In this document: positions 1 to 23,965 of the stretch, one piece after another
How positions within the stretch are numbered: the stretch's first letter is position 1
Layout: each line of letters starts with the position of its first letter
IMG/VR virus record: IMGVR_UViG_3300028030_000434
Span: 1 to 23,965 of that record
Strand: one strand, 5' to 3'
DNA length: 23,965 bases
Origin: a virus
Translations under genes and position numbers: made by a program
The notes under the pieces: model-generated
The model's input: only the letters and a program-made list of their open reading frames with translations
Databases searched by the model: none
Told to the model about the DNA's origin: nothing

Positions 1-681
1 CTACCACAACTCCCGATAATGTAGTGAGGGGAACGATGAAATTTCTTTTATTTTAGTTGTATAGGCTAAATGTGCTTCTTCCGGCGTTCCATACGTGCCT
101 AAATCTACTGCGACACCATTTATTTGACATCTTGCTCTGTGTCTGTTTTTAGATTTATAAACACAAGTAGGAAGACCGGACTTTCTTCTTGGTGTTGCAC
201 TTTTGCTTATATTTTGCCTATTTGTTAATAATTGTAAATTCTTGATATTATTGTTTATCTTACTATCATCGATATGGTCAACCTTAAGGTTTAATTGTTT
301 TCTATCTTTATCGCCGAAATTATCCCACACTAAAGTATGTATTAAATATTTTTTTTTAATCCCATCTTTTGACAGGTTTATATATAAATATCCCTTTTTA
401 GACTTAAATGGCTTTAATTCTTTGCCTTTTAATTTATAAAAAACATTTCTTCCACGTTTATCCCTTGTAAGCGACCTTATTCTGCCTGATGTTGATATTT
501 CATAATATTTCTCATATCCCTTGACGGGTTTCCATTGCTCCATAATATTTGCCCTTATATTATTGCCTGATAAATAAACAACGAAAAGCGGGCAGACATT
601 ACCCGCCTTATCGTTCTGGTTTATAACTCCAAAACTATTCGTTGTATAAAGTAAAAACAATATAACAATTGTTTTTGACAT
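1..681 (-). CDS. HNH homing endonuclease (NUMOD4 + HNH + AP2-like)
   Basis: The gene encodes a free-standing homing endonuclease that would cut an allele lacking the gene. From Met47 the protein has a NUMOD4-like segment (W-K-P-V-K-G-Y-E-x-Y-Y-E-I-S ... GRIRSL), then an HNH core (L-x-V-D-H-I-D-D-x-K-x-N-N, followed by N-L-Q-L-L-T and N-x-S-K), and a C-terminal AP2-like DNA-binding stretch (G-V-Y-K-like, RARCQINGV, LGTYGTPEEAHLAY). The first 46 codons look like a hydrophobic signal peptide unrelated to HNH proteins. Their ATG overlaps the stop of the preceding gene (TAATG), so they may be the remnant head of another gene. The endonuclease probably starts at ATG 543, which has its own AAGGG eight bases upstream. 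The HNH family call is secure; the start is not. Confidence 0.85.
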   Translation of the reverse strand: MSKTIVILFLLYTTNSFGVINQNDKAGNVCPLFVVYLSGNNIRANIMEQWKPVKGYEKYYEISTSGRIRSLTRDKRGRNVFYKLKGKELKPFKSKKGYLYINLSKDGIKKKYLIHTLVWDNFGDKDRKQLNLKVDHIDDSKINNNIKNLQLLTNRQNISKSATPRRKSGLPTCVYKSKNRHRARCQINGVAVDLGTYGTPEEAHLAYTTKIKEISSFPSLHYRELW

Positions 682-6886: not shown

Positions 6887-7007
6887 ATAAACCCCTGTAA
6901 AAACACATTCATTAGCTTTACTGTGAATGCGAGGGTGTAACCCCTTTGTTAATAAAAATGTTTTCAAACATTTGATAAATGTTAGTATTATTTTGTATAT
7001 TTACATT

Positions 7008-8138
7008 ATGAAATTGACATTGAAAATAAAACTTTTGCCTGCTGATGAACAGAAACAACTTATCATAGACACTATGAAAGAAGTTAATACTGTTTGTAAT
7101 GCTATATCTAATATAGCTTGGGAAAGAAAAGTTTTTAATCAATTCAAAATTCATAAAGAAGTTTATCACCCTTTCAAGAATACATTTAATCTTTCTGCTC
7201 AAATGCTTGTACGTGCTATTTCTAAAGTTGCGGATTCGTATAAGATTGATAAAAAAGTTAAACGTAAATTTAGACTTTTGGGTGGCATTACTTATGATTC
7301 TCGTATTCTTACCTACAAACCCAATAATATTGTCTCCATTTGGCTTATCGGCGGTAGAAGTAAAATACCTTTTATTTGTCATAATAAAAAGTATATCCCT
7401 TACATTAAAGGAGAAGCTGACCTTATTTACAAAAAAGGTAAATTTTACTTGTTTCAAACCGTTGATGTTCCTGATGAAGAAATTAAAGATATTGAAGAAT
7501 TTATAGGTGTAGATTTTGGTCTTACAGATATAGCTGTTACTTCCGATGGTGTTGTGCATTCTGCTAAATGGCTTAACAACTATCGAGAGAAACGGCAAAA
7601 AGTTCGTAGTTCTATTCAAAGCAAAGGCACTAAAAGTTCTAAAAGACTTTTGAAACGGCTTAGTGGCAAAGAAAAAACTACTTCCAATATTATTAATCAT
7701 ACTATTTCTAAGTCTATTATTAAATCGGCTAAAAAGCAAGGCAAAGGCATTGCTATTGAAGATTTGACCGGTATCAGATTTACGAGTAAAAAAAGAAACA
7801 AAAAGTTTAGGACAAAACTTGGTAAATGGAATTTTAGCCAACTTAGATTTTTCCTTGAATACAAAGCTAAGCTTAACGGCGTTCAACTTGTAGTTGCCCC
7901 ACCGGCTTATACATCGCAAATTTGTAGTAGTTGTAATCATATTGGTAAAAGAATTAATAAAGTGTTCAAATGCACTAATAAAAATTGTGAAGTAGATACT
8001 ATTGATGCCGATTTGAATGCGTCTTATAATATCGCTTCGCTTGGGGCTTCCATAAACAAGCCTGAAAGTTCGAGTATGTTTTGCTTTTTGCATAATATCC
8101 TTAGTTCTAAAATTCACACATCTTTGGTGTGTGAGTAG
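7008..8138 (+). CDS. tnpB: TnpB RNA-guided nuclease (IS200/IS605 OrfB)
   Basis: The 376-residue protein is a complete TnpB, the RNA-guided DNA nuclease ancestral to Cas12. From Met at 7008 it has the N-terminal OrfB region (MKLTLKIKLLP), then the split RuvC core: I-G-V-D-F-G-L at 166-172 (D169), A-I-E-D-L-T-G at 249-255 (E251) and D-A-D-L-N-A-S-Y-N-I-A (D333/D335). A zinc finger C-S-S-C ... C-x-x-x-x-C lies at 306-327. All three acidic residues and four cysteines are present, so activity looks intact. It runs opposite to its neighbours, as expected of an insertion. The start at 7008 is preferred to 6927, which would read through the left-end palindromes. Confidence 0.93.
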   Translation: MKLTLKIKLLPADEQKQLIIDTMKEVNTVCNAISNIAWERKVFNQFKIHKEVYHPFKNTFNLSAQMLVRAISKVADSYKIDKKVKRKFRLLGGITYDSRILTYKPNNIVSIWLIGGRSKIPFICHNKKYIPYIKGEADLIYKKGKFYLFQTVDVPDEEIKDIEEFIGVDFGLTDIAVTSDGVVHSAKWLNNYREKRQKVRSSIQSKGTKSSKRLLKRLSGKEKTTSNIINHTISKSIIKSAKKQGKGIAIEDLTGIRFTSKKRNKKFRTKLGKWNFSQLRFFLEYKAKLNGVQLVVAPPAYTSQICSSCNHIGKRINKVFKCTNKNCEVDTIDADLNASYNIASLGASINKPESSSMFCFLHNILSSKIHTSLVCE

Positions 8139-10618: not shown

Positions 10619-13586
10619 CGCCCATAAAGTCGCTAAGTCGCCTTTTCCTATCATTTTGCAACTCTTTCAACCATTCCGGCGTATTGTCTTCTTTCTTCTC
10701 ACGAGGTTTTCTAAGATACAAAACGGCATATTTTGCCGAATCATAACAGTTTGAAACGAGTATATTGTTTGCGTAATATTCGTGGTGTCCTTCTATATGT
10801 AGATTATATACTTTCCTTTTCCCTAATTTTAAGCCTGTTATGTTTGCCTGCACATCTTTTTGAGCAATGCGTGGCTCTTTGGAATTTGGTTTTGTAAAAT
10901 TCCCGCCCGCAATATTCACATACCGTGAGTACATCCTTCGGAGCGTTGTCTCTTTGCCATTTTTGGTTACATTTTGGGGAGCAAAAGAAAGATGTTGTAA
11001 CGTGTGATTTGTATTTAGTGCCACAAACTTTACAAATACATTCCTTATCTTTTGTACGGTTAATCCAACTCTTTGCCCCAATAACAATATGTGCTTGCCT
11101 TCCTTCTTCGGATTTGTGCCATTTTGTCGCAAGTGGTCTGATTGCGTCCATCCGTGCCTTAATTTTATCGGGGTTGTTTTTGCAATAAAGTTTTGCGTGA
11201 TGCGATAAATGAGAAGATTTAAGAACGCATTCAAGGTTTTCAATCTTGTTATTAGATTTATCGCCGTCGATATGATGGATATGATAGCCTTTAGGAATCT
11301 TTTTTTTATGATAATCTTCCCAAATAGCCCGATGTAAATAAAAAACCTTTGTTTGTTTATTTGTTTGTTTATGCCCTCTAAAATACCCATCTTTGCCTTG
11401 ATGGTATTTAATACCTTTGAATACGATAGTTTTTCTTTGCATACGGCTTTCCTATATTTCTGCTTATCCAACTTACAATAAGTATTCGAGAGTGTCAAGT
11501 CCGATATAGGAATAAAATCTTTGTTTTCATTAGTGAATATCTTATGCGTTTCCGTCGATGCAAGATTAAGGTCAGGATAATAATTCACATCTGCCGATTC
11601 CCTTACAAATGTCATTAGTACCTTTTTGAAGCCTTCTCGTGTCCAGACATAATCACCAACTTTAACATCTCTAATTGGTATCTGTCCTCTTTTTGTAGCA
11701 ACTAATGTATTACCTAAAAAACAATGGTCTTCTTGCCCCTGCTCAATATCGTTTGGATTTGTCTTACTTACAACTAATGAAGGGAATGTCCTAATGAAGT
11801 TTCTACATCTTGCATATACAAGTATTTTCGGTTTTTGTATTATGTTTCCTACTTTGTCGGTTTTATAGTTCAGCAAATCGTGGAACAAATCGTTTGAACC
11901 TTCTCTATAACCTTTATTCTTTTCCGGCGAAGATTTTGAAACTTTAGCAAGCTTTATTCCGCTCTCTATGTATTGATAGGCGACGGTCGCACTAACATCA
12001 ACATCGAATCCGTCCTTAATCCACATATTTGTATCGCCCACAATTGTTATATTTTGCATTCCTCTTACTCTTAGAAATTCTTTAAGGTCTGAAATTTTCT
12101 TACTTCTTACCTCTTTTTCGTGATACAATTCATCGAACAGTAAGTAATTACCGTCTTTTGTCCTTGCAACCAAAGTTGTTACAGTAACATTCCCATAATC
12201 AAGACCGCCTACAATTGCCATATTCCCCTTGATTTCAGAATAACTTAAGTAATTTTCTTCTTCAACAATGTGTATTTCACTATTGAAGTCAAAGAATTGT
12301 CCTTCAAATATATTCCAGTCTCCGTATAATCGAGCTTGCTTCTTTGGCTCCGGTAAATGTGCAAGGTTATGTGCATAATCAGAGTACTTCAGGCAATAGT
12401 TCATTCTTTCTTTTTCAGTCCAGATATTATAATATTCTTCTACCGTGAATCCGTGCTCCTCAAGTTGACGCTCTACCCAAACAACATTATCCCAGATACG
12501 AGCTTCAAGGTAATAATAATCATCCGGGTTTTCGTAGCTTTCGTATTCCCTCGTTACAAATATCCTCTTATGATAATTGTGGGAAATAAATCCGGGTATC
12601 ATTGTGAGAATCATTTTTGCTTGCACTACTTTACTCCGGTTCCTTGTTTTCAGAAACTCTATCATATATTGAGTTGCAAGCGTTGATTCATCGATAAATA
12701 TATAATCGTATTCTTTTCCTTCAAACTGTTCAATGTCCTGCTCTTTGTCTGCGCTTCCGAATTTGATTGTATTGCCGGAAGGAAGATAAAGTATTCTTTC
12801 AGTTTTGTTGAAGTATTGCCGGAAATAAGAATGCGTTTGAAAGAAAGGGTTGATGTGATTCTCTAACAAATCGTTACTTAACCGCCTAAAGATGAGAATC
12901 TTAATCGGAACGGAATAAGCTCTACTTGTAAGTACCAGGGCAAGTTCTCTAACTGCGAATGATTTCGCTCCGCCGTTTGAATTGTGCGTTACTATCTTAT
13001 TGTTCATTAAGTACAAACCGTTCGGATTGCTAACAGTAATACATTTACATTCCTTTTTACCGATTTTTCTTATTTTTTTTACTTTTTTGAACGTTTTTTC
13101 ATCATTTTTGATGTTTTTTTCGGTGGGAATGAGAATTTTATACTTTTTCTGGAATATCTTATATAGTAGTTCGGTTGGATATATTCCGTCTTTTTGCTCG
13201 CTATCTATAATAATAGATGATTTCCAGAGATGGTCATAGCTTGTTTCTGCTTTTGTATTATCGTGAAAAGTAATTTCGTAAGTAAGTAATTTGCCTCTTT
13301 CGTGTATTTCTGTTATTGTCTGGTTAGTTCCGTCGGGGTTCTTAATTACATCACCAATCTTTGCATTTTGCATTGTAATGTAACTTTCCGGTGTTTCTAT
13401 CTTTCCTGTGAGTGGCTGCGCTCCGCCGTACCCAATAACTTTGTAGTTAGTTTCATCAATAAGCCTAAGTAATTCACTTTGCTTTGGTTGAAGTGCAACG
13501 GTTACTTTTTGTTTTTTTTGATTCTTTCTTATTAGTTTATTTTTTTTCTTTCTTTCAAGGAATCCGTTTGTATCTGTTGTAATCAT
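10614..13586 (-). CDS. terL: Terminase large subunit with two inteins
   Basis: The 990-residue precursor is the DNA-packaging ATPase/nuclease. Removing inteins A56-N202 and C622-N946 leaves about 518 residues, the normal TerL size. Extein motifs are as follows. The P-loop is G-Y-G-G then S-N-G-G-A-K-S-F (split by intein 1). Walker B is Y-D-Y-I-F-I-D-E at 293-300. The RNase H-like nuclease has G-L-D-Y-G (D463), I-V-G-D-T (D518) and C-Y-D-S-A-K-Y-A (D949, just after intein 2). The P-loop has Ala before Lys in place of Gly, a tolerated deviation in terminases. The start codon has no clear SD. It lies between the small terminase and portal genes, as usual. Confidence 0.92.
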   Translation of the reverse strand: MITTDTNGFLERKKKNKLIRKNQKKQKVTVALQPKQSELLRLIDETNYKVIGYGGAQPLTGKIETPESYITMQNAKIGDVIKNPDGTNQTITEIHERGKLLTYEITFHDNTKAETSYDHLWKSSIIIDSEQKDGIYPTELLYKIFQKKYKILIPTEKNIKNDEKTFKKVKKIRKIGKKECKCITVSNPNGLYLMNNKIVTHNSNGGAKSFAVRELALVLTSRAYSVPIKILIFRRLSNDLLENHINPFFQTHSYFRQYFNKTERILYLPSGNTIKFGSADKEQDIEQFEGKEYDYIFIDESTLATQYMIEFLKTRNRSKVVQAKMILTMIPGFISHNYHKRIFVTREYESYENPDDYYYLEARIWDNVVWVERQLEEHGFTVEEYYNIWTEKERMNYCLKYSDYAHNLAHLPEPKKQARLYGDWNIFEGQFFDFNSEIHIVEEENYLSYSEIKGNMAIVGGLDYGNVTVTTLVARTKDGNYLLFDELYHEKEVRSKKISDLKEFLRVRGMQNITIVGDTNMWIKDGFDVDVSATVAYQYIESGIKLAKVSKSSPEKNKGYREGSNDLFHDLLNYKTDKVGNIIQKPKILVYARCRNFIRTFPSLVVSKTNPNDIEQGQEDHCFLGNTLVATKRGQIPIRDVKVGDYVWTREGFKKVLMTFVRESADVNYYPDLNLASTETHKIFTNENKDFIPISDLTLSNTYCKLDKQKYRKAVCKEKLSYSKVLNTIKAKMGILEGINKQINKQRFFIYIGLFGKIIIKKRFLKAIISIISTAINLITRLKTLNAFLNLLIYRITQNFIAKTTPIKLRHGWTQSDHLRQNGTNPKKEGKHILLLGQRVGLTVQKIRNVFVKFVALNTNHTLQHLSFAPQNVTKNGKETTLRRMYSRYVNIAGGNFTKPNSKEPRIAQKDVQANITGLKLGKRKVYNLHIEGHHEYYANNILVSNCYDSAKYAVLYLRKPREKKEDNTPEWLKELQNDRKRRLSDFMGV
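10749..11723 (-). other. Intein 2: class 1 intein at the terminase nuclease motif III
   Basis: Residues C622 to N946 of the precursor form a standard Cys-type intein. Block A is C-F-L-G-N-T-L-V-A-T, followed by I-R-D-V-K-V-G-D-Y-V; block B is S-T-E-T-H (T678, H681). Block F is V-Y-N-L-H-I-E-G-H-H-E-Y-Y-A-N, and block G is N-I-L-V-S-N with Cys947 as +1. The usual penultimate His is Ser945. Between blocks B and F lies a ~210-residue Lys/Ile/Asn-rich stretch that is not an endonuclease in this frame. It is the overprinted shadow of a separate HNH gene. The insertion point is immediately before the Y-D-S-A-K-Y-A nuclease motif. Confidence 0.9.
10804..11442 (-). CDS. HNH endonuclease nested out of frame inside intein 2
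   Basis: The 212-residue protein is a complete HNH homing endonuclease. The HNH core is Y-H-I-H-H-I-D-G-D-K-S-N-N-K-I-E-N-L (53-70), with a further H-x-x-H-H near 78-82. Two C-terminal zinc fingers follow, C-x-x-C-G ... C-x-x-x-C (137-158) and C-x-x-C-G-R-E-F ... C-x-x-x-C (175-197). It reads on the same strand as the terminase but in a different frame. It begins at ATG 11442 with AGGAAAG about six bases upstream, and its TAA lies across codons 927-928 of the terminase frame, inside intein block F. It can therefore be translated on its own. Its likely target is the intein-free terminase nuclease motif. Confidence 0.9.
   Translation of the reverse strand: MQRKTIVFKGIKYHQGKDGYFRGHKQTNKQTKVFYLHRAIWEDYHKKKIPKGYHIHHIDGDKSNNKIENLECVLKSSHLSHHAKLYCKNNPDKIKARMDAIRPLATKWHKSEEGRQAHIVIGAKSWINRTKDKECICKVCGTKYKSHVTTSFFCSPKCNQKWQRDNAPKDVLTVCEYCGREFYKTKFQRATHCSKRCAGKHNRLKIREKESI
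12981..13421 (-). other. Intein 1: class 3 (W-C-T) mini-intein in the terminase P-loop
   Basis: Residues A56 to N202 of the terminase precursor form a Hint domain inserted in the ATP-binding loop. The N-terminus reads A-Q-P-L-T-G-K-I-E-T-P, with no Cys or Ser nucleophile. Class 3 markers are all present: Trp121 in D-H-L-W (block B), Cys182 in C-K-C-I-T-V-S-N-P (block F) and Thr200 before H201-N202 (block G). In this class the internal Cys makes the first branched ester. The +1 residue is Ser203. There is no endonuclease domain (about 147 residues). The start is A56 or Q57; A56 gives the usual P-loop spacing (G-x4-A/G-K-S) after splicing. Confidence 0.88.
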
Positions 13587-22900: not shown

Positions 22901-23205
22901 CAAATGAACTTTCCCGGTATTTCCGGGTATTTCACTTTTACATTTAGCCAATTTGCAACCTCTTTTGTTAGAAATAACTCCGTTGTCATTAGTACGGAGA
23001 CTACTTCGTGTATATCATCAAGAATATCCACTCTATTAGAATACTCCTGAAATAATTTACTTATTTTATATTTTTTATCAGATAATTCTATTCCTTGAAA
23101 AATTATTAACTTAACCAGTCTTTCTTTAACCGCTACCGGTATTTCTTTGTATATTTCTTCGACATAGGGAAGATGCTTAACCCCTTCTTTCGTGTATTCA
23201 ATCAT
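22900..23205 (-). CDS. Hypothetical protein
   Basis: The 101-residue product is not recognised. It is helical, with V-A-V-K-E-R-L-V-K-L-I-I-F-Q-G-I-E-L and a C-terminal E-V-A-N-W-L-N-V-K-V-K-Y-P. AGGAG precedes the ATG at good distance. It overlaps the DUF5131 gene end by eight bases, so it is the next gene in that operon. Confidence 0.6.
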   Translation of the reverse strand: MIEYTKEGVKHLPYVEEIYKEIPVAVKERLVKLIIFQGIELSDKKYKISKLFQEYSNRVDILDDIHEVVSVLMTTELFLTKEVANWLNVKVKYPEIPGKFI

Positions 23206-23965
23206 TTGGGAACTCCTGCCGTTGTAAATATTTCGGGAATTTAGAAATATCTTTTTCTATTTTCCCGTCAATTTCTATTTGTTTAACAAACACAGACTTG
23301 CCGTATATTTCCGCCTGCTTAACAATTGCACCTATCCATTCTGTTTTGGTACGTTGTTTATTTCTTCCTGACATTGCACCAACAATTATCCAATCCACAA
23401 GACCCGCACCAAACATTTTCCTAGTTGGAATGTACTCCAAGACAGGCTCGAAGGAAACATATCTTATCCTTTCAGTCTTTATAAATTCGTTCAAATCGAA
23501 TAGTTTAGTTAATTCATTTTCTTTTGTTACAGTTACACCAAACCAAACATTATCCGGCATAATCGGGTCAAGTTTTTTATACACTTTCGGAAATTTCGTT
23601 AGGAACAAAAAGGTATGCTGCGGATGTTTTTTGATGCGTTCCACTACTCTATTCATCCACTCATCCTTCCAAAAAGCAATATCCGACATTGAGCCAACGA
23701 ATATTCGGCTCGGTTTTTTCGGTAATTGCTTTTCCAATTGGTGTTCAAATAAAAAAGGTTCAAAGCTTTGAATTTTCTCGATTTTATCATCGTAATAAAC
23801 CTCAGCAATTTCCGGGTCTATATTTCGATACTCATTTTCCGCTCTTACCATCGGTTCGGCAAATCTTTTCGCTATTCCTTTTGCATAACAATTATGAGAA
23901 GCATATCCATTTGCAAAATAAGTATGTTCAGAAGTTGTTATATCAATTAAATCTAAAAATCCAAC
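23198..23965 (-). CDS. DUF5131 (phage Gp37/Gp68) protein, C-terminal part, intein-interrupted
   Basis: The visible frame runs open to the window edge and is longer than a reading from the ATG at 23851 would suggest. The mature part begins C-Y-A-K-G-I-A-K-R-F, the conserved C-Y-A-E-x-x-A-K-R segment that in this family closes an N-terminal cysteine cluster. It continues with F-V-G-S-M-S-D, L-F-L-T-K-F-P, N-V-W-F-G-V-T-V, R-Y-V-S-F-E-P-V-L and W-I-I-V-G-A-M-S-G, all family landmarks. Upstream of the Cys lie 25 residues of an intein. The family role is unknown; its cysteine cluster suggests metal binding. The ATG at 23851 is not the true start. Confidence 0.85.
   Translation of the reverse strand, partial: VGFLDLIDITTSEHTYFANGYASHNCYAKGIAKRFAEPMVRAENEYRNIDPEIAEVYYDDKIEKIQSFEPFLFEHQLEKQLPKKPSRIFVGSMSDIAFWKDEWMNRVVERIKKHPQHTFLFLTKFPKVYKKLDPIMPDNVWFGVTVTKENELTKLFDLNEFIKTERIRYVSFEPVLEYIPTRKMFGAGLVDWIIVGAMSGRNKQRTKTEWIGAIVKQAEIYGKSVFVKQIEIDGKIEKDISKFPKYLQRQEFPND
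23891..23965 (-). other. Intein 3: C-terminal end of an intein in the DUF5131 gene
   Basis: The 25 in-frame residues before the DUF5131 Cys read F-L-D-L-I-D-I-T-T-S-E-H-T-Y-F-A-N-G-Y-A-S-H-N. This is intein block F (L-I-D-I-x-x-x-x-H-T-Y-F-A-N-G) and block G ending in S-H-N, with Cys as the +1 residue. The intein N-terminus and any endonuclease lie beyond the window. Confidence 0.88.

Follow-up and report, generated by a model that had tools for sequence, protein, structure and literature searches.

A probable intein directly before the third cysteine of the radical-SAM-type motif in a phage DUF5131 gene

At one end of the stretch of viral DNA analysed here (the window, 23,965 nucleotides in all), a minus-strand gene of the DUF5131 family runs off the record, raising the question of what the residues directly before its conserved Cys-Tyr-Ala (CYA) are. 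Our answer is that the window in all likelihood ends in a class 1 intein that splits this phage gene right in front of the third cysteine in a CX3CX2C motif. The reading frame is open from 23965 to a stop at 23198-23200 and reads VGFLDLIDITTSEHTYFANGYASHN/CYAKGIAKRF... (slashes mark splice junctions throughout), with the intein remnant ending in ...LIDITTSEHTYFANGYASHN and followed by Cys. Read directly, the intein closes with the codons CAT AAT, and TGT follows as the +1 codon, so that the span given to the remnant in the first-pass annotation holds to the base. The tail carries block F and His-Asn followed by Cys+1, as expected of the C-terminus of a class 1 intein, and none of its 25 codons is ATG, GTG, TTG or a stop. 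The ATG at 23851, which that annotation had called a false start, is indeed not the real one, because starting there would drop the invariant CYA.

Table 1. Positions of the features described in the text, numbered on the window
Feature	Position	Strand	Evidence
C-extein, DUF5131 (Gp37/Gp68) radical-SAM-like domain, CYA to stop codon	23198..23890	-	PF07505, phrog_2045, TIGR04471
Intein C-terminus, last 25 residues, blocks F and G, ending His-Asn	23891..23965	-	tail profile, NF038136 alignment, homologues
TGT, Cys+1: +1 nucleophile, first C-extein residue and third Cys of CX3-8CX2C	23888..23890	-	
First terminase intein, 147 aa	12981..13421	-	
Second terminase intein	10748..11723	-	
HNH_3 endonuclease ORF, 212 aa	10804..11442	-	
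TnpB/IS605 OrfB-like ORF	6927..8138	+	translation
Free-standing NUMOD4-HNH endonuclease ORF	1..681	-	

The C-extein is a DUF5131 domain, matching PF07505 over profile positions 24-215 of 243 (E 2.8e-31; 109.3 bits, with a gathering cut-off of 28.9) and phrog_2045 (E 5.9e-41); it also matches TIGR04471 (radical SAM mobile pair protein A) at E 2e-31, a score under that model's own cut-off. The domain's opening ~25 residues lie outside the record, and in DUF5131 relatives this part reads K-T-K-I-x-W-x-D-x-T-W-N-P-V-T-G-C-x-x-G-C-x-Y. The public record is exactly the 23,965-base window, and the rest of the intein falls beyond its end. We take the record to be a fragment because no tail genes were recognised in it, and on the same ground set aside a circular record, whose first bases would place an in-frame TAG stop immediately upstream. 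A search of viral contigs for the same virus with the coded tail pattern A-N-G-Y-A-x-H-N-C-Y-A gave no match, and a search with the portal protein found no relatives in viral contigs and only distant phage matches.

A survey of DUF5131 proteins, which the first-pass annotation had proposed, revealed complete inteins at exactly the same residue in six other genes, lending support to its placement of an intein at the conserved CYA cysteine. All six are LAGLIDADG inteins of 333-349 aa, and their carriers are four virus contigs (IMG/VR 3300036760_000945, 2867339791_000001, 3300047160_014427 and 3300012973_001074), a plasmid of Streptomyces sp. P9-2B-2 (NZ_CP129127.1) and an actinobacterial MAG (JACCXF010000321.1). 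In the Streptomyces plasmid gene (L006), tblastn shows GCDN and CYA separated by an insert of 335 residues (GCDN/CLAPETLV...THN/CYALTL), and the Pfam match to DUF5131 is broken into two stretches, between which lies a weak LAGLIDADG_3 match (E 5e-4); the other five inteins measure 339 (L090), 345 (L103), 341 (L183), 349 (L185) and 333 aa (L239). Every carrier locus has DUF5131 split over more than one stretch together with LAGLIDADG_3, and every intein is contiguous, has N-terminal splicing blocks A and B, starts with Cys and ends with His-Asn, followed by Cys-Tyr at the identical residue; those of L006 and L090 share 43% identity. Two alignments, A2 (two artificial chimeric rows) and A5 (trimmed natural tails), served only as baits to pull in candidates, which were then read directly. 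The window gene shares family, residue, tail pattern and Cys+1 with the six, whereas their inteins are complete and their exteins have a longer CX6CX2C spacing and belong to another DUF5131 branch. The window intein is probably likewise LAGLIDADG-bearing and about 330-350 aa long.

The homologous site is filled by complete inteins in these genes and empty in relatives. The joined flanks of L006 align without gaps with the DNA of an intein-free Streptomyces gene (L107, 93% identity) at 148 of 177 bases. Inteins at the DUF5131 site are rare, with none in 72 scored viral genes and one in about 80 genomes with matches. The viral genes come from the best 80 viral DUF5131 loci, in 72 of which the motif is uninterrupted, eight not being cleanly scored by the script. 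DUF5131 matches occur in 45 of 295 Streptomyces genomes, none with the split pattern, and in 43 of 396 actinobacterial genomes, one with it (the source of L103, G002). Long actinobacterial DUF5131 matches were considered as hidden intein carriers and set aside: none of 12 readable stretches (13 fetched) held an intein, and the extra length lay downstream.

What the cysteine itself does is suggested by conservation and by fold. All 49 DUF5131 sequences compared have Cys-Tyr-Ala, and more than 90% keep the two earlier motif cysteines; the window shows the third cysteine, the first two lying beyond the record edge. A sequence search of the PDB with DUF5131 found no relative. The nearest relative of the window protein, the intein-free L010, was modelled as a proxy for it (mean pLDDT 90.5), and the model has a radical-SAM barrel fold. 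It is closest to six entries for spore photoproduct lyase (SPL), at Z 12.8-13.0 and rmsd 3.2-3.3 over 191-193 residues, with model residues 1-225 aligned on SPL 72-341, followed by viperin, RlmN and lipoyl synthase; Foldseek again ranks SPL first (E 5.6e-4). The cluster ligands of SPL are Cys90, Cys94 and Cys97, with which Cys18, Cys22 and Cys25 of L010 agree in spacing (a match of spacing only, model residue 1 falling on SPL 72-73). Because DUF5131 is predicted to fold like spore photoproduct lyase and has the motif, Cys+1 very likely binds a [4Fe-4S] cluster once the protein is spliced. The earlier description of this residue as a likely metal ligand fits both the invariance of the third cysteine of CX3-8CX2C and the SPL-like fold.

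Inteins also occupy the third cysteine of CX3CX2C in other families: DUF1848 (L243, L245), SPL-like proteins (L186-L188), a SPASM-type protein (L189) and QueE (L190). These are inserted directly before the third cysteine, as in the window, and are similar in intein sequence, although their hosts belong to other families. In the SPASM-type radical-SAM gene (3010-4026 of L189) the residues that precede Cys appear to be Ser-Val-Asp rather than His-Asn; this intein may lack activity or rely on an atypical ending. The DUF1848 gene of L245 (2599-3072) holds a 158-aa intein that lacks an endonuclease; this natural mini-intein occupies the same motif and shares 55% identity with the L243 intein, which is complete at 328 aa. 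Outside these families, an intein in L191 (3010-3738) lies within a CxxC of an HNH endonuclease (RCQY/C), directly before a Cys that is probably a metal ligand.

Could the 25 residues instead resemble an intein by chance, being simply the usual N-terminus of a divergent member of DUF5131? About 25 residues precede CYA in ordinary family members too, but those of the window lack the family N-part WNPxxGCxxxC. A 25-aa intein-tail profile searched in six frames against about 620 kb scored the window tail at 34.4 bits (E 1.2e-8), the runner-up reaching 12.0 bits (E 0.12). This profile was built solely from intein tails found without using that of the window; a first tail profile, drawn partly from a pattern that included the window tail, was rebuilt without those rows. 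With a larger profile the window tail scores 41 bits vs 4.2 for the next match inside the window, and the tail plus CYA aligns with positions 313-339 of NF038136, the NCBIfam model of the intein-containing Rv2578c family radical SAM protein (rSAM_Rv_intein). Chance resemblance is thus extremely improbable against this background.

Two further readings accept the intein and differ in what lies beyond the edge. Split inteins occur in phages, and as the gene is cut by the record end, its continuity with an N-terminal half is out of view; the gene might then supply just a C-intein half joined to the DUF5131 C-part, another locus encoding the N-half. We regard this as highly improbable, given that the 25 tail codons offer no start codon, that neither a DUF5131 N-part nor an unpaired block A was found elsewhere in the window, and that every one of the six complete homologues at the site is contiguous. 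Just as improbable, in our judgement, is a decayed remnant in a DUF5131 pseudogene, the rest of the intein having been lost. The visible part is the C-terminal 25 residues only, and the 158-aa intein of L245, with no endonuclease, indicates that inteins at this motif do shrink; the tail nonetheless retains its catalytic His, Asn and Cys+1, and the 230-residue C-extein is open and a good match to its family.

We therefore favour a complete intein that interrupts the DUF5131 gene. The precursor would be translated as an N-extein (...WNPxxGCxxxCxx), the intein and then CYA..., with Cys1 undergoing an N-S acyl shift and Cys+1, the future cluster ligand, accepting the N-extein through transesterification. 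Cyclisation at His-Asn would free the intein, and an S-N shift would ligate the exteins into an uninterrupted CX3CX2CYA, able to hold a [4Fe-4S] cluster. The intein would have spread as a selfish element, its homing endonuclease cleaving intein-free alleles at a near-invariant stretch of codons. For the window copy, of which 25 intein residues lie in the record and the N-terminal splicing block, endonuclease and N-extein outside it, the rest of the support comes from relatives, and from these we infer an intact N-part, splicing, homing and cluster binding by the cysteine.

The phylogenies bear on how such inteins reached their hosts. In the intein tree, one group (87/91) unites the six inteins of DUF5131 genes with the two of DUF1848 genes, and a separate group (99/99) holds inteins of other sites, the deeper position of those from the SPASM-type and QueE genes being uncertain. 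Among the exteins, carriers are scattered, clustering no better than shuffled labels, and the intein label needs seven changes, at least five of them forced by well-supported branches. This conflict between the trees is the pattern expected of horizontal homing or repeated loss, not of simple descent. The window's 25-residue tail is too short to be placed in the intein tree; its extein pairs with L010 (support 96). Because that extein sits in a DUF5131 branch other than that of the six carriers, the window intein might represent a separate lineage that occupies this site. A broader proposal, which we offer tentatively and consider on balance unlikely, is that one intein lineage has specialised on third-cysteine codons (TGY-N6-TGY-TAY) and moved among DUF5131, DUF1848, SPL-like, QueE and SPASM genes. 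Because Cys+1 becomes a cluster ligand, splicing would under this proposal act as a gate for loading of the cluster and could be sensitive to iron or redox state.

Several further features of the window were noted. Its first terminase intein lies in the Walker A region (GYGG/AQPLTG...VTHN/SNGGAKS) and starts with Ala, and by eye its W (DHLW), C (CKCITV) and T (VTHN) resemble the class 3 WCT motif. The second (CFLGNTL...ILVSN/CYDS) contains, in a different frame, the HNH_3 ORF with its own ATG, and the intein frame runs through this ORF without a stop. An insert in a phage methylase, neither intein nor intron, is known to hide an out-of-frame HNH (PMC11855218), whereas the out-of-frame HNH_3 of the window lies inside a Hint intein. 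The TnpB/IS605 OrfB-like ORF sits between mostly minus-strand phage genes, and the NUMOD4-HNH ORF adjoins the major head protein region.

Taken together, these data extend the known hosts of inteins to DUF5131 (and DUF1848) and indicate that inteins recurrently pick the third cluster cysteine of radical-SAM-type motifs, this wider pattern being the more interesting result. With splicing nucleophile and predicted cofactor ligand being the same sulfur atom, such proteins offer a system in which to study coupling between splicing and Fe-S loading. They also carry a warning, as gene callers truncate them at false starts or where a contig ends.

Inteins favour conserved sites, where loss has been argued to be hard since removal has to be precise (PMC2814812); the first-pass suggestion that an intein at this cysteine would be hard to lose precisely draws on that general argument. 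Those of mycobacteriophages (in TerL, RecB-like, ThyX and other proteins) also lie in active-site motifs, often beside invariant residues, and DUF5131 and radical-SAM proteins are absent from the host-protein table of the mycobacteriophage survey (PMC5050341). Among the non-subscription papers searched, DUF5131 is unmentioned and no paper was found on Rv2578c and an intein together. The first-pass remark that inteins in this family are not commonly noted agrees with this, and NCBIfam does cover an intein at the motif in the Rv2578c family. NF038136 resembles the window gene in describing a radical-SAM protein that carries an intein. Alignments of the complete DUF5131 inteins to this model run from about 51-61 to 338-341 and span the cysteine motif and the insert; scores remain far below its curated cut-off of 700 bits, at 17.9 for the window fragment and 84-104 for four complete DUF5131 inteins. 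The host of NF038136 is the Rv2578c/SPL-like family and that of the window DUF5131, so an intein at the radical-SAM third-cysteine motif is already known through NF038136, and the DUF5131 host is, as far as we have checked, the new part.
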